Assembly (NCBI GenBank): GCA_000310025.1
Contig: FN648731.1
Coordinates: 1-23,760, forward strand
DNA: 23,760 nucleotides
Direction of reading: 5' to 3'
DNA from: Ectocarpus siliculosus
Taxonomy: Eukaryota; Sar; Phaeophyceae; Ectocarpales; Ectocarpaceae
Below are positions 9,487 to 22,300 of this stretch, in pieces. The notes below the pieces were generated by a model. That model did no database searches, was not told where the DNA came from, and saw only the letters and a program-made list of their open reading frames with translations. Position 1 is the stretch's first letter; each line of letters starts with the position of its first letter. The translations under genes were made by a program, and so were the position numbers.

Positions 9487-12400
9487 TTAGACGGCGCCGT
9501 GAGCCATCATTGCTCTTCCTACTCGAAGGAAACCCGCTATGGTGCACCCCTTGTCAAGGTTTCCTTGTTGGTTGAACTCCCTGGCAACCGATGACGCCAC
9601 CTCGTAGACCTCGTCCATCTGGGAAAGGCGGGAATGGGCGAGCGCGGGGGGAAGGTGCACTCATAGTCGTGCATGCCGTAGTCGTTAGGCCATTGACCTC
9701 GCATCCCTACAAAGCCGGGACGGAGCACTCCGGGTTCTCACCGGATCAGGCTCTCACATCACCAAGCGCGAAGCGCCGTGAGGTACTCGGCGAGTCGCAT
9801 GAAAGGTGGGGGGGGGGTATTGACTTTGTGCCTAAAATGCTATTCTGCACCATTTACATTTCGTGTCCAGGTATTGATTTCGCTGAGGTGCCAATACTGA
9901 CGCGAGCCACTACTGACGCGATTGGGACATTCGATGCTATTGACACTACTGACGCAACCAAGACGATACGACGTCAACGGCATTGATGCTTGTAAATCGT
10001 CACGCAGGAACGTAAGCGTCAGTCAAAATCGATGCCACGCAGACTCCATCGAAAACGCGACATGGGCGTTGTTATTCCACGGCTCCAAAATCGAAGATGA
10101 GGAGAGGATACAGCTGTAACGGAGAAGTAGATTGTGAACATAGAAGCAAGTTCAAACACAGCGAGGGCTCTGATTGGCAAACAAAAAAAAAAAAAGAGAG
10201 AGAAAGCAAAGCGTGTTGCACGCCTATGTCATCGGTGGAAGGGTGCGCTCCCGGAGGGGCATGACTTCAATGAAGGGTTGAAATGCAGCTAAATCGTATG
10301 TTCGAATAGGAGACTCTTGGCACAGGACCAACTCAGAGCAGTATTCTACAGTAGTGCAAAAACCGCCCTCGATCCTACCTTCTTCTCGAGCCTGTCGTCT
10401 ATGGTCTCTCCGGGCTGAAGAGGGTTGCGGTCTAACTCCCTTCCCCCGCTGATGGCGGCGCCAATCATGGTCCCGCGGTACGGCACGTGGAAAATCCCGT
10501 TCTTCTTGAGAACCTGAGAAACCGTTCAAGAAAAGACGAAGTCGGACGACGAAGTCGGGGCGTGAGAGAGCAGGCAGCGGCCCGAGTTGAGCGTTTCCTC
10601 GAGGAAGCGTCGAGGGTTTGTGCAGGAGAGCACACGAGGTTGAAAGGGCCATGCGATCTTGGTAAGACAAGAGAGGATTGACCAGGATGTCGAAGAGCGT
10701 CTCTGGGTGTTTCTCACGCGTGTCCCAGAACGGAGGCGTGTTTCTCGACAATCTCGCGGCAACAATCGCTCTGGACCGCTAAAGCAATCGAGCCAAGTCA
10801 CTTTGGAGCGGCCTAAACCTGAGCTGTCCCTGGGTTGTTTTTTGTGTCCAATACTTGGTTTGTTGTCAAAATCGCAATACATCGAATAAGCACCATCATT
10901 TCGCCGCTGCCAAGTATCCGATTGCGGTAACGCCCATTCCGTCATGTTCAGAAGCACCATGCTAAGGCAACCTTTCGACTCTCGTCACACTCTCGTCACA
11001 CAGCAAGACAAGACAAGTCCAGTCCACCTTTGAACCCTGGTCTGAATGAACCCTAACTCTACGTATACCCAAACACAACCGGGTCACGTAAGGGCAGCGC
11101 AATGTGCATGCAGTAGGTGTTTTGGCGGGCTTGTACTGGGGTTACGTGCCAGCGTGAGGTGGCATCGTGTTCCGACATGGGGACCACCAATTTCCACCAG
11201 TTTCAACCAAGCGGTACAAAGCTGCTGATCATTCTCTCGGTTGTGTGAAATCACCGTTGCAATTCCTTCCAACGCACACGTGCGATAATTCTGTTCTGAG
11301 TCGCATACCCGTTGGTCTCAAACTGGCGTCTATGAGCGGAGACGACGACGAGGACGACAACGAAACAACAACGACAACAAAGTTAAGGCTCAATGTGGTA
11401 TTTTATCCATGAGAGAGGACGAACATGAACCACCACCAACAACAACAACAACAACCATAGCAACAGCAGCAGTAGCATACGTCCACACCTCAGCCGCAGC
11501 CGTCGACACGGGCCGGTACCCCCCGTCAACGACGGTCTTGCAGCCGCTCGCGACCAGCGCATTTGCCTCCACTTCGGTAAGCTCGTTGGAGGTCCTGCAG
11601 AGGAATGCCACGTCTGCCGGTGCGTCAAACACCGACTGCGGCTCGTTGTACTTTGCGGAGGGGGAAGCGACGATGTACCTGACGGCAAGAGAACACAATA
11701 AAAGACGAGGCAAGACAAGTCAAAACGCCGTTGTCGCTGCTGGTAGTGGGTGCGACACCAGCAGCGTGGGCCTGATTTCCCTGTTCAAATGCGTACCTCA
11801 GGAAAAACTATGATACCTATTAATAGTCATGGGACAACTCTGGAAACGAGTGTCGGACGAAAAACAAGGAAAAGGACGCTGGTCTGGCCAGATCAACGCC
11901 ACCGCAAGGTGGTGGTACGGATACACAATATGGGAGTTTGATATTTCTTGGCGAGCAGTGATACCGGAATACACCGTATGTAGTTCGTTTTCGGTGCCGG
12001 GCTGATCCTGGCATGGGGTCGATCAATCTCAGGGTTGGATTGGAAGCCAACATTGATCGTGGGTCGGCGTGTGGGTGCACTGCCACCCGCGGTGAACACC
12101 GGTGTCAGCAGCAATGCGATCAACACGGGTCAAGAGGACGGCGCAAGTACCATCGGCTTCCGGATGATCATGCTGAAAAAGAGCATGTGATTGGGAATGC
12201 TACCGCAGCTCAACCCAACAACAATGGCTATGACGTGCACTTCAAGGAGATAGTGCATGCAGATCACGTCGGGCTTTCCATATGTTCCGGACCAAATTCA
12301 CCCATTCTAGATCGTCAAACGAGCCCCCTTGGGGTCCCGTGTGCAGCCATCACAGCAGCGATGATAAGAGTGGGGGCCTCACCTTCCAACTCGTGCTCCT

Positions 12401-15400
12401 CTCTCCTGCTTAATCTTGGCGATTTTCTTGAACTTCTCGACGTCGAAACCCTGACGCGGGGGTAGCAAAAGGAAGCAGCGTGTGGTTGTCACCGTGGCTC
12501 GGCATTTAACAATGTTGTCCCGTACACGGGCCTAACGGAGCCGCGTCGGCTGGCGGTGTTGCTCCGTCTATTTTCTTGTTCCTGTGACGTTGTATCAACA
12601 AAACTAACCCCTTAGACTAGTCAGCAGGACCAGTACCCACTCGTGGTCACGGCTACAAATACGGTAGGCTTTCGTCGGCGCGAAGGTGTTTTCGTTGCTG
12701 TGACTACGTCGCCTTGGTCGGTTTGCTCTTGTGTGATATTTTTAGGTTGTTTCCTTGTGAAACTTGGGGCGCAGAAGGCGGTCATAAAGATATCATCGTC
12801 TTTCAAGGAATCAGTAAACAACAGCAGGAAAATACACGACAGCACGAAAACAACGTCACCGGCAGCGGTAGGTAGGTCTCACCTCTGGCTCGAAGACGTG
12901 TCCACTGCTGTCTGTGAACGTCATCGGAGTGGCACCCAGCTCGAGAAGTTTCTCCGCGACATGCAGGGCCACCTTGATTGCACGACGAAAACCCATCACG
13001 TCGTCGGCACGTCACGCAGAGGTACGCCACAAGGGCTCAGCGCATGACGGTGGTTCAGCGCATTGAAACATTGAACCACATGTCGCGTATATGTACAACA
13101 CACACAACAAATGCTTGCCACGTCACAGCTCAGTGTGTAAAAAAGGTTAGCCCATCGCATGACGACCCACAGAGAGGACATGCAACAGCGCAGACACACA
13201 CGCGCTGTGTCCACTGCACCAAGACTCGGCTGGCACACCAGACACGACACATCGGGTCCCTCGCAGCCGTCATTCACAAGTCCGAACCCATATTTGCAGA
13301 AAATATCCTGCTAACCGGCAACCACAATAGCATGCTATCCGAAAACACGAAACCGGAAAACCGAGACCCAAGAGATCAATACGGACATTCCACAGGACCT
13401 CGTATGAACGTCACCTTAAAGACGTATTGAGCACTAATTTCCTCTTGCGCGACCCCTGCTGGTGCATCAAGCATACAAGCCATACTGTGCATAGACAGGG
13501 GCCCGAGAATAGATGGGACAAAACACGCACGCGCGCTAGCGAAACTAGTTGGTTGCGCGTGCCACGCCGCTCCGAACCTATCGATCACCTTGCCGCTTCC
13601 CGTAACGATGCACCGCTTTCCCATGAGCGACTCGCCCCGGCCTCGCATCGCCTTCTCCGCGAAGTAAACCACGCCGTAGCCCGCACACTCCGGGTGGGGC
13701 ACAGCGCCGCCCCACAGGAGGCCCCTTCCGATCGGAGACGCGTCGAGGCTCATGCGCTTGTACTGCATGCGGGGAGTTGGTCGCGCGGACACAGGGGAGG
13801 CGTCGTAGGGGGGAGTCGTCGGGCTAGAGTAGCAAGGTTGAGAAGTGTCCTGGGCCATATGCAGCTTGTACCGCCCGTGGACGTTTTGGTAGCATAGACA
13901 GGGGAGTAGTGGTGCTCATAGAAGGGTTGTTGGGTGCAGGGGATAATAGGCTGGCGTCCGGGCTCGTCCATTAGTACGACCATGGCCGGGTTCGGTATTG
14001 CCTAGAACGCACCGAGTTGAGTTGACCTCCTAATTACTCCGATGTCCACCTCTGGGACCCACCGCCCATGCCAACTTGAGGGGTCGTATTCTGCACCCCC
14101 TCCAACGATACTCAAGTCCCTCGACAAACTATCCAGAGCATCCACATGTAGCCTGCCGCAAGGCGTACCCAGACTCCGTGACGACACTCCGCGCGAAAGC
14201 ACCAACTTTGTGCGCATACAGTTTTCGATGCCTGTCGCCCCTCACAGGCGTCAACATGTTCGTGCAAACATATATTTTTCTTACCCGTAGAACACGTCTG
14301 GTCCTTACCCTGGCCGTAGCGATACACGACTGCTCATTTAAATGCCTGAGGAGAGACCATCTCGTCGTCTACCCTCACAGACATCCAGATTGTTTCCTAA
14401 ACTTACCAGCAAGGAATTTCAACGTCTGCCCGGCAAAGGCAGGTGCCCACTCTTTTCTGGCCCCTCCCTCCCCGCAATCTCTTCCTCACCAACCTGGCAA
14501 GGTCTATTCTGTCACTTCACACCATTGTTCATACGCAAATAGTCTCCAGTCTAAATCATGCAATGTACATGCATGCCATCAAACTCTCCAACTACAAACG
14601 TGATATTCCGATCTATCTCATGCAATGTGCCTGTACATCGCCAACCTCCCCACCAACGCAAATGTTTCCCCAATCTATCTCATGTAATGTGCTTTAATAT
14701 CATCAACCTTCTCCAACCCACCCGCTCTACCCTATTTTCTGATCTCTCCTTCTCAAATTCCAATAAAGACATCCGGGCTCCCCTCCTCAGGTCGCTAAAA
14801 CTCCATTAAGACGCCTGGTTCAATTACTCCTTGTCTACCAGCGAAGGACGTCCGGGCTCGACCGCTAGATCTTCGAAATACATCGAATCTAAAAAGACCT
14901 AGATCGGTAGCACCCCCAGGGAACATCTGGTCCAATTTTTCCCTCTCTATCTTTTCGCTCTCCCTTTTCTATGTATCTCTGCCTGCCTGTCTGCCTGTCT
15001 CTGTCTCTCTCTCTCTGCCTCTCTGTCTCTGTCTCTGTCTCTGTCTCTGTCTCTCTCTATATATATACATATATCTCGCACCTGCCCGTAGAGGTACCCG
15101 ATCTCGGGGGGGCCGACGCACAAGCCCATGGAAGGGCAGTCCACCTCGGTCCCGATGTGCTTGGTCATCGCCGACATATAAGCCTGGCAGAACCTGACAC
15201 CCACACAAACCCAAACCCATCCACCCGGAACAGAAAAAGCACACGGGCCGGACCGGCAGGAATATGGTTACCCGCGACCGTGATGGACTCGGGGCAAGAG
15301 TCTTGTGCCTTCCCGCGGGACAACCACACCACAAGACCACTATCCTACCTTGGTCTTTTAGCGGGTAGCAGGGTCAGAAAACCTGTTGCCTGTTTTCACA

Positions 15401-18400
15401 AGACGGTGTGTCCGCTTCTAGACTACATCTGTCTCCGTGCCGATTTTCGTGGAAAGTGAGGCTCTCGCTCCCCGGTATCGCACGTTTCTCGAGCTCGTTG
15501 ATTGAAACGAGTAAGGCGAGAACGTCCGCGTCACGGTTCTCCTGCGGCGGTTCTAATCGACAGTTTGTGCACACGACCCTCTCTCGCCCTGTCTCTCTTT
15601 GTATGGCTGTCTGGCGGCACTGTCTCTGTCTCTGTTTTTCTCTCCACAGTAATTTGTTTTGGACTATTTTGTAGGTAGGATAACCAAAACTCTTCCAATG
15701 AGCCAAAAGCAAGACGACAAGCTAGTGGTGACCTCTCTGGCGCAGTCTTGTGTGCTCAATTCGCACTTCGTTACCATATGCACCTATTTTTTGCGTACCT
15801 CTCGGCCTCTGGAACTCTATGCATAACATGATGTAGCCCACCCTCCCCTATTCTAAACGTATTCCGGAAGAATGACTTCTAAATGTGCATACGTCTTCCT
15901 CGTTACCTCTGGATCTCTGCTTCGCTCTTGTCGTGGACGTTGAAATCTGCTCCTCCGACGCTTGCGCCGACCTTGAGGCCCGACAGAGAGTTGCTCAGGA
16001 CCAGGTCGAAGGCGTGAGCCTTCACGTCCGCCGCCGTAAGCTCCTTCGAAAAGTGCAGAGGTCCCTGCGTCGAAGAAGGGCGTGGTTGTTTCGCGTTCCG
16101 GCAGGTTTGCAGAGGGTGAGCGCTGAGATGTACTATTTACCTCGTTGTTGTCACTAGCCATGCTCGTTGCAATCTGAATCGTGGTTTGACCGGACTAGGA
16201 CGGGTACACCCTCTGTTGGTCAGGTCAGAAAGAAAAAACAAGGAAGCACTCACCACGAAGGGCCCTAGCGCGCTCGAGTACTGGTAGCGATACCCGCGGT
16301 TGACGCGGATGATGCCCTTGTCGTCCAGCCAGGCCACCCGGAAGGATAACGCCTTTTAAAGTTAACGAACAGGAAATGCGTTTGATCTTTGTCAGGAAGA
16401 CAGCAGAGGAGACCACACAACGCGTACCAGAATGTTTGCGTTGAGACAGACACGCGGAGCAGCTGCTATTGACAGCTACATCGCTGCAGGAAGACCTGTA
16501 ACAGAATGCGTGGAATGCACGAGACCGTTGGTTGTCTCCAGACTGAACAAAACTTAACCCGCAGTGGTGTGCGGACAGTGGGCGCATTTCAAGGAGTACC
16601 GTATGCATACCACGTGGAGCGCAGAACTTTCATTGCGAGAAACGCAAGCTTTTCGGGCACAACAGCAGTAGTGGCACATTTTCCTCAAGGCACAACACCA
16701 GCGCAAGAAGAAAAAAAAACGTCGTTTCAGATTTATTCCAGCGGGCAGTGCTGCAAGCACCCTCGGCGTGCAAAAAAAAAAGGAGGAGAACCCGCCTTTT
16801 TCCACGGGTGGTTGGCCACCCGAGCGTACAGCAAAAACATAAAATACCCTGCCACGCTCACCCGCTCCGCTTCCAGAAGCTGCTTGGCCACCCAAGCGTA
16901 CTGCGGCCAGCGGTCGATGACGGGAGCGACGGAGTCCAGGACGTCTCTTACGGTGTCAAGGAAGATCTGATCGTGGGGTCCGAACCGTAACGCCTCGGCG
17001 TACAGCATGTCGGCGGCCTCTGCTCCCGTGCGGAAGAAGCCTTCGCCCCGGCCCGGCCGAAAAAGCGGCCGTTTCTTCCAAGAGATCTGGATTTTTTAAT
17101 AGTGTTCAACACGGATTGACGATGCGCCTGGCTTCGTTGCATTGAGCGTGTACGTACTTGTGGGAGACGCTCGTTGAATCGTTCGGTTAATGGAAAGGAT
17201 CAGCACCAACTGTCGGTTGGTTGTGTTGCTCGTGTTTCGAGGGGAAACGCTGACTAGGAAACGCGCATGAAGGGATGGGCGGACAAACGAAGGACACGAC
17301 ACGGGAAATGTGCCCGTGGAACTGACTCAAGTAGCTGTCGGCGTTTGTGCTTCCGGAAGCAACACATGACTTTGGCTAGACCTATGCACAGTACACATAA
17401 CATGACCCCACGCCTTCAAATCGACTACGATGACGAGGAGGATGCGTGAGGGAAGAGCTGCGCTCAAGTCGGCGGTCATACGGACTCACGTGGGCTCTGA
17501 CTTTGCGGTCGCTGTGTGGTTGAAGAGTCCGAAATCGGGACCGCACATAGCAGAGGCATTCTACATCCTAAATCCTGGTTGTAGCTCATCGAACACTATG
17601 ATTTAGTTCTCGTTGGAGGGACGACCCTTGCTAAGCCGCTGGCAAAGAGGAACAGGGCTTTAGTTGAGGCCGGGGCTATCCCCCGGGTTGGTGTAACACA
17701 AGAAAACTCTCTGTGCCTTTGGATTTGACCTTCCTCCTGTGGTGTGACTCCGGGTGATAAGTCCGAAACGGACACCGAAAAGGTGTGTGTACTGTTGCTG
17801 TAGACTGGCGTTAGAATGATGGGAGGAACACTCGCACTAGCAACTCACACCAACTTTGCCTACTTTAGGCGTAATATTGTCTGATTGACATGTGTGCTTT
17901 TCTGACTGACGCCACGACAATTTCGTGTGTCGACCGACCACCCATGTAATGAGCATTTTCGTCGACGTTGCGTTTATTTACCGTCGTTCATTGCTGTTTT
18001 CTCTCCCTGCCACCGCTCGGATTTCCCTCTAACCGCTCAACGAAAGTTGAACTCGAAGAGCTCGCAGGCCATGGTACGATATGAGAGTGATCCAGACCCA
18101 AAAACATGGCTGCGGACCTTCGTATGTACCAACGTAGTTGGGGTTACGGGCTCAACTGCTGAAGTCATCATTGCTGTGCTCCGTGTATGCATACCAAAGG
18201 GGAAAGCCAGGTGGCGACGTGAGCGGCACAGTTGGCAACCCAGCCAGCCTTGGCCACAGCAGCAGTATACATGTACTTCCGGAGTGCACCCTGCTGTACG
18301 CGGTAGTCTATGATACATACAACGGTCTACAGATGTTACGCAATAGCGGGGCGTTTCCGTGAACATGCACAAGGGCGGGTTGTTTCGGTTCTGAGAGGAA

Positions 18401-18918
18401 AAATTGCGATGGTGTACACTGCACAGCGTTCGCAAGGAAGACATTTGGCATGGCTGATCCCCGACGTAATCTAAGTGCTGGTGAAGCGTACAAACTACGG
18501 TTTGCTGTCGTTCGTTGGTTGGGTGCTGCGCCAAGCTGCGCATGTTTTGCATACCGCCGGTTTGTGTCTTGGAAGTACCGCGGAGGCAGCAAAGCACTTT
18601 GTATGTACGACGTGTCGGTAGCAAGCACCGAAATATTGCACGAGCGATCGAAACATTAACATTGGTCCGACTCGCTCGAACCTTGACAAATCTCACCTCC
18701 TCTGACTGCGGTCCCTTCACGCTCCTGAACTCATCGAGGAGATGCTTTTCGGTTCTCGAGTTGCCGAGAACCTTGATCCCCCTTGTTGCTGCCGCCAAGT
18801 TCAACATCGTTGAAGTAGCGCCACCAGGTTTTAGCCCAGCTCCTGCTCTTGCTGTCAGCACGCTTGCACGCCCACCGCTGAGCATGCCCACAAGGGGCCG
18901 CATCTTCGTAGACATCAT
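9487..18918 (-). CDS. Glutamate dehydrogenase-like protein with a degenerate active site (probable mitochondrial pseudoenzyme), 11 exons
   Basis: Exons on the minus strand are 18918-18697, 17017-16862, 16352-16254, 16064-15907, 15193-15082, 13762-13589, 12972-12883, 12450-12383, 11678-11489, 10513-10379 and 9618-9487 (stop TAA). All introns are GT-AG and all phases agree, giving 511 residues. Residues 1-60 are rich in Arg/Ser/Ala with almost no acids, like a mitochondrial presequence. Residues 75-511 align end to end with hexameric NADP-type GDH (E. coli GdhA, about 447 aa): QYAWVAKQLLEAER, VNRGYRYQYSSALGP, DKSEAEIQRFCQAYM, EIGYLYGQYKRM, ECAGYGVVYFAEKAM, VTGSGK, FTDSSGHV and a C-terminal GCTIAGFLRVGRAMMAHGAV. 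Active-site residues are lost: V159, S183, V195 and G235 stand where E. coli has K92, K116, K128 and D168. No stop or frameshift occurs, so it does not look like a decayed pseudogene. The start is uncertain, because an in-frame ATG also lies at 18978. The exon 2 acceptor could instead be at 17086. Confidence 0.93.
11431..11478. repeat. ACC/AAC trinucleotide repeat at the start of intron 9
   Basis: The plus strand reads CACCACCAACAACAACAACA and then CAACAGCAGCAGTAGC. On the coding (minus) strand this is a GTT/GTTG-rich tract that begins about ten bases inside intron 9 of the GDH-like gene (donor after 11489). It keeps the frame open past the donor and so creates a misleading reading frame. Confidence 0.75.
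12642..12709. repeat. Imperfect palindrome in intron 7 of the GDH-like gene
   Basis: The outer 20 bases of the left side (GTGGTCACGGCTACAAATAC) match the reverse complement of the right side (GTTTTCGTTGCTGTGACTAC) at about 15 of 20 positions, around a central segment of roughly 28 bases. As a result both strands encode similar short peptides with VTAT and VAVTTS. It is probably a diverged inverted duplication. Confidence 0.55.
14550..14745. repeat. Three-unit 62-bp tandem repeat in intron 5 of the GDH-like gene
   Basis: The phrase TC-ATG-(C/T)AATGT recurs with its CATG at 14557, 14619 and 14681, exactly 62 bases apart. It is preceded in two copies by AATCTATCT or GATCTATCT, and followed by diverged C-rich text ending in CTCC-AAC words. 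The copies are clearly diverged, and the third trails off near 14745. Confidence 0.6.
14980..15074. repeat. CTCTGT microsatellite ending beside a splice donor
   Basis: A pyrimidine tract built from CTGCCTGTCT, CTCTCT and repeated CTCTGT units runs into an ATATAT stretch. On the minus strand it forms the beginning of intron 5 of the GDH-like gene, starting about seven bases after the last exon base (15082). The donor is followed by AT-rich and then GACAGA-rich sequence. Confidence 0.85.
16812..16901 (-). repeat. Partial exon duplication beside exon 2 of the GDH-like gene
   Basis: Bases 16884-16901 in exon 2 (encoding YAWVAK on the minus strand) recur at 16812-16829 in intron 2 with 17 of 18 identities, 72 bases apart. 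The intronic copy would encode YARVAN. Similarity fades on both sides. This looks like the remnant of a local tandem duplication. The exon copy is the one that fits the GDH alignment. Confidence 0.55.
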
Positions 18919-19331: not shown

Positions 19332-22300
19332 ATGGTAGCATCGCTGACATCGATCGCGGCCTTGCTCGCCCTTGTCTGGCCCGCCTCGGCGTTTGTCAAG
19401 CCAAATGTTGGCAGCTCTCTCCAGGTCTGGCGTAATCGTGGCCTGTCGGCCTTGTGTATCATGTTGCACGTCGCCTTTTTTTGGTTCAGCTCTCCCTCTC
19501 GCACGTACATGTGCGCCGCATACGCTTTTGTAGCTGTGTGGTAAGATAGTAGCGACTACTGGGGGGATAAGGTGAAGCAGCACTTGCAGTGGTTGCTTCG
19601 TCGGATCGAGGAATGTATGGTATCTCGCTCTCTCTGTGTCTATCTGTTTGTTGTGCTATCTTTCTGGCGAGGGGCTCGTCATGCGCTCAACAAAACGTAA
19701 ACGTTATCGCTCCATCAGCTGTCACATCCCTTTTGTCTTGCACCCTCCCCCCGTGGTAGCGATGCCCCCTTCCTTCGGGCCGGTGAAAGGCCCAGCGAGG
19801 GGGAGGCAGGGCAGGGCGGTGCAGGGCACTGGTTTGCCCCCCAATATCGATATTTACTAGTCCCCACGTTCCTCTTCGCGTGGGCAAAATGTCGGAAAAT
19901 TTCAAATCCCGAGCCTGCTGCTGCTATGCTATCTATGCTGTGCAAGACACAGGAAACAGCTGTCCATTGCCACCAAGTGCGAAGAACATATACCAAAAGC
20001 CTACACAATCAAGTCCGCGTCCTCCGGCAGCAAATCTGCTCGTGAATCTCGAGATACAGCAGTTAGATTGCCCATTTCGGCGGCATGTGTTTGCCCCACG
20101 TGCCCGTTGCATTGCTACGATCCCATTTGCAACTTTGTCCCATGGTAACCGCGGTGGGTATCAGCTGGTTGCTCCTCCGGAGCCCTACGAGAGCATGACC
20201 ACCGCGCGTCGAAGAGGGTGTGCAGCGGGCATTCATCGCCTTAACCTAGCCGGCTGTTCCACACGCGCGCAAGACACAGCAGTGCTGGGCTGGTTGCCAA
20301 TCGCGACGCAATTTGTCGACGCCGTGTTGGAAGGACAAGACGTCTTCGACGCGCACGATCTATCGCCGTCGATACGATTCGATTCGCCAACTCGCCCCCA
20401 CGCCTTCGGCACTGTTGTATCTGGACTGCGAGCGTGTCGGCACATGCTCACGTCGTCATGATGTTCCTTGGTCGGTTGGATAGCACCCGTAGTCACCCCC
20501 ACCAAAGCCGACTACTCAGCACCGCCTGTCAGGCTGTGCGTCGACCCTTACCGACCGACCACCTTCTTCCGTTCGATGCTGTTTCTCCCTCCGGTTGCAG
20601 GCGAGGACCAGGGGTGTGAGGGACGCCGCTCCTGCATCGGCCCCTCGACTGTCGATGGCCGCTGGGCCCACGGTGAGTCAGCAAGAGAAACCAGCCTACT
20701 GAAAGCCTCCGTCGACTACCACTACTTACCCAGAAGACTGGTGGGATTGATTGGCGCAGGGCCTTGGCTCTCCTTTTCTGTTGCGAATGTTGTGGCGTGC
20801 CTGAAACGTCCAGAGGCTGGATTCGACTACAACTACCCTGAAGAGCAGAATCGTTTTTGGTACGCTGCCACCGTACCGTGCTTGGCCCGCACCGGGACAT
20901 CGCCCAAGAAACAATCGGCTCCGAATCACCTGCATCACTACCGCCCCCCCCCGCCCCCCCCGCAGGTGGAAAACGTGGCAGCTGTTGTCCTTGCCGGAGG
21001 CGTCGGCAAGCGGATGGAGGCAGGCATGTAAGTACGCGGAAGCCAGGAGTTTGGGATGACCGAGCGTGAGGTTTTAAATGGGCGGGGGGCACGAGTAAGC
21101 GGTACGCACAACCGCCACAAGGTTGATGCCGTATGTTGGTAGCGACAAGACTTCCGCTGTCTTCGCACATGCCGGGTGTACACGTTGTTTGGCTTACATC
21201 GGCTGCAGGCGAATTCGTCTCGACGCCTGACGGGGTTGCGTTGCTTCACAAGCTGTTTTATTATCGTCGTGGCTTGGTAAAACTGTCACTGCTGTGGTCT
21301 GAAGGGATATACGACGGATTTTACTCTCCGTAGCCGACGATGTGTCTGAACGCACAGAAAGCAGTCCCTCGATCGATTCTTAGGTATGTTCGATTGCTCC
21401 TCAACCATCAAGAGGCTGTCGACGCCGAAACGGGTGGTTTCGGAAACATCTCGTCGAGAGAGAGCTTCCTTAGTGGACATTTGCAGCAACCCTTGTTGCG
21501 GTGCAATCCATTTTGTAACAATCGATCACATACATTCCCGTGCGTTCGCCCGCACGCCTTGCGGGTTGTAGCCACACCCACCATTGCGTTGAGCACCCAT
21601 GTCGTTTTTCGATGATGGGTGTTTGGGCACCATGTGATGATGCTTGACGCTGCAACCGTACCGCCGTTCTCGCATCCTCCCTCCACGAGAGGAAAGCTTA
21701 ATCCCGCCCGTGTCATTTCGTCCGTTCCCCCCCCCCCCCCCCCCACTCAACCTGATTTCCAATGCCGCTTTTTCTTCGAAAAAAGGCCGAAGCAATTCCT
21801 GGAGCTGCAAGGGGAGACCGTGTTGGAGCACAGCCTCAAGCTCTTCCTCAGGCTCAAGGGAGTGTCACAGTGAGTTCCTTTGATTTTTTGGTCGCTGGCC
21901 AAGACTGTTTCAACACGCATCTTGCAAACTCCAAGCCCTTGCATAGATGGAGTACGTGCTTGTGGAGGTGCCCAAGGAGAGGTTCAGGGACCCGCCGTCG
22001 CCGTCCGTTCCCCATGACCCCCGTAGGTTTTTTTTTTCAAGGCAACGAGTGTACCTTCTTACCGTGAAGAGATCGTAGTTAGCTGCGTTTGTTTGGCCCG
22101 TGTCATACCGGCGCGTTCCGGACCTAGGACATCGGCCACTTCTGTGTACCCTAAATTATGGCCGTCTATCACCAGCCCCGTGGATGCCGTTTTGTTCTTC
22201 GAAGGAGCAAGAAAGCGTTCTACTTATATTTTGTCCAGCAGAACCTCCCCTTTCGTTCTTTGCCAAGGCGGAGACGCGACATATCCGTGGTCACGAGCTA

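Follow-up and report, generated by a model that had tools for sequence, protein, structure and literature searches.

The window analysed here, the first 23,760 bases of the 64,793-base contig FN648731.1 (C198) in the 189 Mb, 492-contig assembly of the brown alga Ectocarpus siliculosus, carries on its minus strand a gene homologous to glutamate dehydrogenase (GDH), with its start codon at 18918 and its stop codon ending at 9487, as a first-pass annotation had placed it. The residues needed for GDH catalysis have been replaced both in this protein and in a second copy encoded on contig C16, and it is almost certain that neither is a working GDH. As judged from sequence, the two are a duplicated pseudo-GDH family and not a case of local decay. 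Our overall reading, held tentatively, is that they may be a pair of ancient pseudo-GDH paralogues that would act as a mitochondrial NADP(H)-binding regulator or scaffold.

The proposal that the window protein is a full-length GDH homologue was borne out. The Pfam families ELFV_dehydrog_N (PF02812; residues 148-274, profile positions 2-128 of 129, 115.6 bits against a gathering cut-off of 25.3) and ELFV_dehydrog (PF00208; residues 290-532, profile positions 1-241 of 241, 144.9 bits against 23.4) were matched nearly end to end, and the protein is an ELFV dehydrogenase superfamily homologue over its full length, in both domains. NCBIfam NF006929 was matched at 1.6e-114 over 432 residues, so the homology to GDH is not due to chance; its equivalog cut-off of 536 bits was missed by both copies (383.3 and 444.5 bits). 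A profile search of the window protein against phage families gave zero matches. The algal proteins resemble the hexameric NADP-type GDHs (GDH50s; E. coli GdhA) in the two full-length Pfam domains, the NADP fingerprint and the C-terminal motif. They differ from GdhA-type enzymes in that four substrate/catalytic residues and three nicotinamide-site asparagines are replaced, in an N-terminal extension, and in missing the equivalog cut-off.

To locate the losses, both copies were aligned with 30 bacterial GDHs presumed to be active (E. coli GdhA and loci L009, L010, L011, L013 and L018-L042); L012, with a gapped C-terminus, and the partial L014 were excluded. Loci L018-L042, the 25 top-ranking of 115 matches spread over 89 of the 96 genomes, are biased towards the query. 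Residues are numbered as in E. coli GdhA, with replacements given in the order window/C16. The first-pass annotation had reported K92, K116, K128 and D168 to be replaced by V, S, V and G in the window protein, which proved correct, and all four are also replaced in C16: K92 (V/E), K116 (S/A), the catalytic K128 (V/A) and the catalytic D168 (G/G). Replacements were also found at R96 (H/H), R207 (H/Y), N242 (K/K), N348 (Y/S) and N373 (M/L); T211 and S380 are A and G in the window copy and are kept as T and S in C16. Each of these eleven positions holds the E. coli residue in 30/30 bacterial GDHs. K92, K116, R207 and S380 are taken by us to be substrate or pocket residues. The catalytic hexameric GDHs (EC 1.4.1.4) are recognised by K128, D168, K92/K116 and N242/N348/N373, and all of these are replaced. 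For Arabidopsis GDH1, Lys102 and Asp142 are reported as the catalytic residues, Asn216, Asn312, Asn337 and Thr185 as making up the nicotinamide site, and Arg70 as lying at the ribose of the nicotinamide (PMC7326016); by motif, these residues would correspond to K128, D168, N242, N348, N373, T211 and R96, respectively. Both copies combine lost essential catalytic residues with a conserved reading frame, as is expected of putative pseudoenzymes.

The losses are concentrated in the active site. Among 142 columns invariant in the 30 GDHs, the window copy keeps 78 (64 lost) and C16 keeps 91; 70 columns are retained in both copies and 43 in neither. The initial claim of good conservation in structural motifs remote from the active site therefore holds only roughly. 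Pocket columns, from a residue list that was not chosen blind, were lost in both copies at 9/11 positions as against 34/131 other invariant columns (Fisher p = 0.0004); the corresponding figures are 11/11 against 53/131 for the window copy alone (p = 0.0001) and 9/11 against 42/131 for C16 alone (p = 0.002). At 17 of the 43 jointly lost positions the replacement is identical in both copies, including S-M-G of PSMG, R96>H and N242>K. When the prokaryotic contigs were scanned with the trimmed core, six loci were found, of which L009-L013 retain all four residues (5/5) and L014 is partial; with the full-length pair, 110 stretches of these contigs matched the pattern and none was confirmed.

Searched with the two ELFV domains of Pfam, the whole genome yielded the window locus and a single locus on C16 (5641253-5635443, minus strand), an intact gene of 5 exons encoding 527 residues. 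The two proteins are 51% identical overall, 54.4% over 432 GDH-domain codons and 68% over a 167-residue core. The best PDB sequence matches to the C16 core were 3r3j, 5ijz and 5gud, labelled as glutamate dehydrogenases, of which 3r3j is presumably the Plasmodium falciparum enzyme. One intron position, a phase-2 intron in EIQ/R, is common to both copies (of 10 introns in the window copy and 4 in C16), so the two probably arose by an old duplication. A single 839-base exon of the C16 copy (L006, 5636721-5635883) stands where the window copy has several (exons 5 to 11), which suggests that one copy lost part of its introns via cDNA or that the other gained introns. In a tree of the bacterial GDHs and the two algal copies, the copies group together with support of 100/100. 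Because of this grouping and the 17 identical new residues, a single loss of catalysis would most parsimoniously have preceded the duplication, and the constraint measured below would then have acted on enzymes that were already dead.

Between the two copies, identity over 432 codons was 0.66, 0.72 and 0.42 at first, second and third positions; pN was 0.305 and pS 0.70, giving a pN/pS of 0.44 (bootstrap 0.38-0.50), and with dN of 0.39 and dS of about 2 (saturated) the pairwise dN/dS was about 0.2. These values supply, on the paralogue pair, the test for purifying selection that had been suggested at the outset, and at the codon level such selection is shown to act on the pair. No active hexameric GDH paralogue of the same genome, with which an alignment had been suggested, was found by the searches described below; the only other hexameric-GDH-type gene detected, that on C16, is also dead. 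In a neutral simulation of 534 codons, stop-free runs numbered 0/1000 at 0.5 replacement events per site and 5/1000 at 0.2. GC at third codon positions exceeds intron GC in both genes (0.76 against 0.52 in the window copy, 0.65 against 0.50 in C16), and none of the pseudogene signs looked for in the window gene model, namely stops, frameshifts and lost codon bias, was found. Selection on a non-catalytic function, as first proposed, is well supported by the existence of a second intact, 51%-identical copy with the same four losses, and it is highly probable that both copies are kept by selection and are not decaying. That the window gene is a decaying relic of a former GDH would agree with its long end branch in the tree and its 64 lost invariant columns, but the stop- and frameshift-free model, the strong codon-position signal, the third-position GC far above that of the introns and the same losses in C16 make this very improbable. 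Recent decay or a local sequence error was likewise rejected, since the C16 copy has the same losses.

What has been kept suggests a possible nucleotide ligand. Both copies retain G239, G241, V243, A244, D263, S264, K286, R289 and R292 (GSGxxA, DS, K/R/R). According to a study of E. coli GDH, NADP specificity is determined by the GSGxxA turn, P7, a Ser at P8 and Lys286/Arg289/Arg292 (PMC12364357); in our own mapping, P7 and P8 are D263 and S264. Of the eight invariant (30/30) positions in this set, which was not chosen blind, seven are kept in both copies, against 63/134 other invariant columns (p = 0.03). With the NADP-specificity residues kept and the pocket residues lost, the end of the site for adenosine-2'-phosphate is preserved and the nicotinamide and substrate ends are destroyed. 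Retained binding of an NADP(H)-type ligand is predicted with slightly better than even confidence. Of the sensor roles first suggested, that for glutamate or 2-oxoglutarate is unlikely, because the two substrate lysines and R207 have been lost, as has S380 in the window copy, and a nucleotide sensor is favoured over it. The copies could instead be neofunctionalised enzymes for another NADP-linked or a different reaction, with H96, S166-M167-G168 and K242 as new pocket residues. Identity of these residues in both copies despite 51% overall identity is what selection would produce, and the coenzyme fingerprint is retained, but the loss of N242, N348 and N373 in both copies does not favour hydride transfer to nicotinamide, and other pocket positions differ between the copies (V/E, S/A, V/A, H/Y); we regard this as unlikely.

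The gene model of the window copy was obtained by spliced alignment of E. coli GdhA (NC_000913) to the window, which gave 11 segments, and by inspection of the 5' end. The first aligned segment (36 bases) was judged spurious and dropped, and exon 1 was substituted there; this exon and the 5' extension of exon 2 were positioned by eye, guided by open frames and by resemblance to the C16 copy, and the model is least secure at their join. The result is 11 exons and 10 introns (189-1610 bases), without stops, encoding 534 residues. Eleven in-frame exons with good splice sites had been claimed before; the exons and the absence of stops stand, and the introns are GT-AG in 10/10 cases with GTGAG donors in 5/10, but the aligner accepts GT/GC-AG introns only, so that the GT-AG count is not independent evidence. 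The residue numbers first given for the four substitutions (159, 183, 195 and 235) are each 23 below those of the model (182, 206, 218 and 258), so a shorter N-terminus had been used, and the substitutions themselves are the same.

All exons lie on the minus strand. Exon 1 (18697..18918, donor GTGAGA) holds the start codon and a weakly conserved N-terminal extension, with 17/63 aligned residues identical to C16, and exon 2 (16862..17086; 42/74 identical) holds the conserved part of the extension (SWKKRPLFR...FRTGAEA) and the start of the GDH domain. Exon 3 (16254..16352), in the GDH N-domain, ends with the codon for V182 (16256-16254) at the K92 position; a donor shift of one codon would remove V182, and neither option yields a lysine. 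Exon 4 (15907..16064) contains R96>H186, K116>S206 (15995-15993) and the catalytic K128>V218 (15959-15957, in GASVGG), and exon 5 (15082..15193) the catalytic D168>G258 (15126-15124, in PSMGLC). The K116, K128 and D168 positions are internal to exons 4 and 5 and independent of splice choice, and splice mis-assignment was thereby ruled out as the source of the losses. Exon 6 (13589..13762) carries R207>H295, T211>A299, the Rossmann GSG and N242>K330 (13591-13589). Among the coenzyme-domain residues, D351-S352 (E. coli D263, S264) are retained in exon 7 (12883..12972; 23/30 identical to C16) and K374, R377 and R380 (E. coli K286, R289, R292) in exon 8 (12383..12450). Exon 9 (11489..11678) contains the replaced nicotinamide-ribose asparagine N348>Y437, exon 10 (10379..10513) the nicotinamide-site N373>M462 and S380>G469, with the lowest share of residues identical to C16 among exons 2-11 (17/45), and exon 11 (9487..9618) the C-terminus (AGFLRVGRAMMAHGAV) and the stop codon. 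The first 45 residues contain no D or E in either copy, with 5 basic residues (K/R) in the window copy and 8 in C16; such basic, acid-free N-termini, in the window copy like a mitochondrial presequence, suggest mitochondrial import.

A further question is whether an active GDH exists elsewhere in the genome. Two tblastn queries, the C16 protein and E. coli GdhA, each returned the two loci plus one chance-level row (E 0.09 and 0.45). Since E. coli GdhA detects even the diverged window gene (3 exons at E < 0.001 and 2 further at E < 1), a normal GDH should be easier to detect. No hexameric GDH with catalytic residues was found in the assembly by Pfam ELFV, tblastn or DNA motif, though glutamine synthetase was also missed by Pfam. 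The DNA pattern for (V/I)PAxD(I/M)G gave three matches in the whole assembly, none in a GDH-like frame, and a motif interrupted by an intron or falling in a gap would escape this search. For glutamine synthetase (PF00120) there were zero genome matches although 14/14 control genomes were matched and the alga must have one, and this more likely reflects a limit of the exon-by-exon search than true absence. The large GDH families had no genome match either, PF05088 with a control matched in Caulobacter and PF23152 with controls likewise unmatched; a large NAD-GDH elsewhere in the genome is possible. The glutamate synthase domain PF01645 gave eight matches, six of them on C27. The two others are partial (C105:124793-125032, with an internal stop, and C24:237942-238052) and possibly represent a second glutamate synthase or fragments.

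These searches bear on the early suggestion of a structural or regulatory subunit within an active GDH hexamer. Two-domain homology would permit mixed hexamers, but above chance level only two loci of the assembly, both dead, are hit by hexameric-GDH models or by E. coli GdhA, and none of the three matches to the canonical (V/I)PAxDIG / (V/I)PAxDMG pattern is GDH-like. Even with absence unproven, given the PF00120 miss, no catalytic hexameric partner was found and such a role is improbable.

In the mechanism we propose, the ancestor would have been a hexameric NADP-type GDH that lost its substrate lysines, its catalytic Lys and Asp and the asparagines that bind nicotinamide, which most parsimoniously happened ahead of the duplication. 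The protein would be imported into mitochondria and may still assemble into a GDH-like oligomer, either by itself or together with its paralogue, and the retained half-site would bind NADP(H) or a related ligand with a phosphorylated adenosine. It could then serve as a ligand-responsive regulator or scaffold, with partner binding in place of glutamate oxidation; this role is put forward cautiously, at somewhat less than even confidence. Alternatively, the two paralogues may hetero-oligomerise with each other, one having the role and the other stabilising it. Retention of both copies in one genome at 51% identity, their shared derived residues and the basic, acid-free N-termini of both are consistent with it, but discordant intron layouts and unequal rates show separate histories, and we consider this rather unlikely.

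Several points weigh against the regulator or scaffold reading. The fitting of the exon model by homology penalised stops and so favoured a stop-free outcome, and the dN/dS of about 0.2 is a pairwise average made rough by the saturated dS. The end branch of the window copy is 2.5 times as long as that of C16 (3.77 vs 1.52), and the tree tool warns of possible false joining of long branches. The tree covers bacterial GDHs and the two algal copies, without eukaryotic GDH, so that a single loss before the duplication is an argument from parsimony and not a test. At the half-site, S262 is T in the window copy, and with N242>K the side chain orienting the amide of nicotinamide is lost, so that coenzyme binding may be altered or abolished. 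The missed glutamine synthetase weakens every negative search result reported here and leaves the absence of an active GDH unproven.

Two other observations concern the window and the assembly. On the plus strand of the window, the exon-like peptides at 20966-21028 (VENVAAVVLAGGVGKRMEAGM) and 21787-21870 (PKQFLELQGETVLEHSLKLFLRLKGVSQ), joined by hand, match the isoprenoid-synthesis protein IspD (MEP pathway; PF01128, 3.8e-11); alone, the frame of the second is below the cut-off and that of the first gives no match. The EsV-1-7 cysteine-rich repeat, whose family is expanded in brown algae, has at least 150 matches in the assembly (150 of 880 candidates scored) and none in 14 prokaryotic controls, as would be expected of a brown alga, and among the matches listed they often lie close together on C30, C45, C26 and C191.

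GDH is a meeting point of carbon and nitrogen metabolism. Some GDHs act through protein contacts, among them RocG and GudB of Bacillus subtilis with GltC. It has been reported that Staphylococcus aureus YwlG, also a GDH, acts with HPF via protein contact (PMC9522360). Both systems are precedents for a GDH-family role through partner binding, although YwlG, RocG and GudB are catalytic GDHs whereas the algal copies have lost catalysis. Other reports describe a diatom NADP-GDH induced by nitrogen lack (PMC4588885), a Saccharina latissima 'gdhA' (K00262), transcribed and regulated, which its authors call 'possibly GDH' (PMC6742357), and Ectocarpus 'glutamate dehydrogenase 1' (Esi0028_0164), also transcribed and regulated (PMC4108028); expression of the kelp and Ectocarpus genes annotated as GDH changes in gametogenesis or copper stress (PMC6742357, PMC4108028). 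By lineage and annotation only, S. latissima gdhA and Esi0028_0164 are possible orthologues or close paralogues of the dead pair, and the excerpts of these two papers are silent on any loss of catalytic residues. The open-access literature searched yielded no description of an algal GDH that is catalytically dead.

In the brown-algal papers, it is annotation that links genes to the GDH reaction. Should the only hexameric GDH genes of a brown alga prove catalytically dead, these accounts of expression and the metabolic models built on the annotation would need revision, and glutamine synthetase/glutamate synthase (GS/GOGAT) would have to carry ammonium assimilation. It is conceivable, though doubtful at present, that brown algae gave up hexameric GDH catalysis and that the gene family is now an NADP(H)-sensing pseudoenzyme pair, in which case the kelp and Ectocarpus 'gdhA' genes would regulate mitochondrial nitrogen or redox metabolism and would not make glutamate. 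A putative pseudoenzyme pair kept at 51% identity, in which the NADP end of the pocket survives and the substrate end does not, would be a good natural case of a metabolic enzyme turning into a sensor or scaffold.

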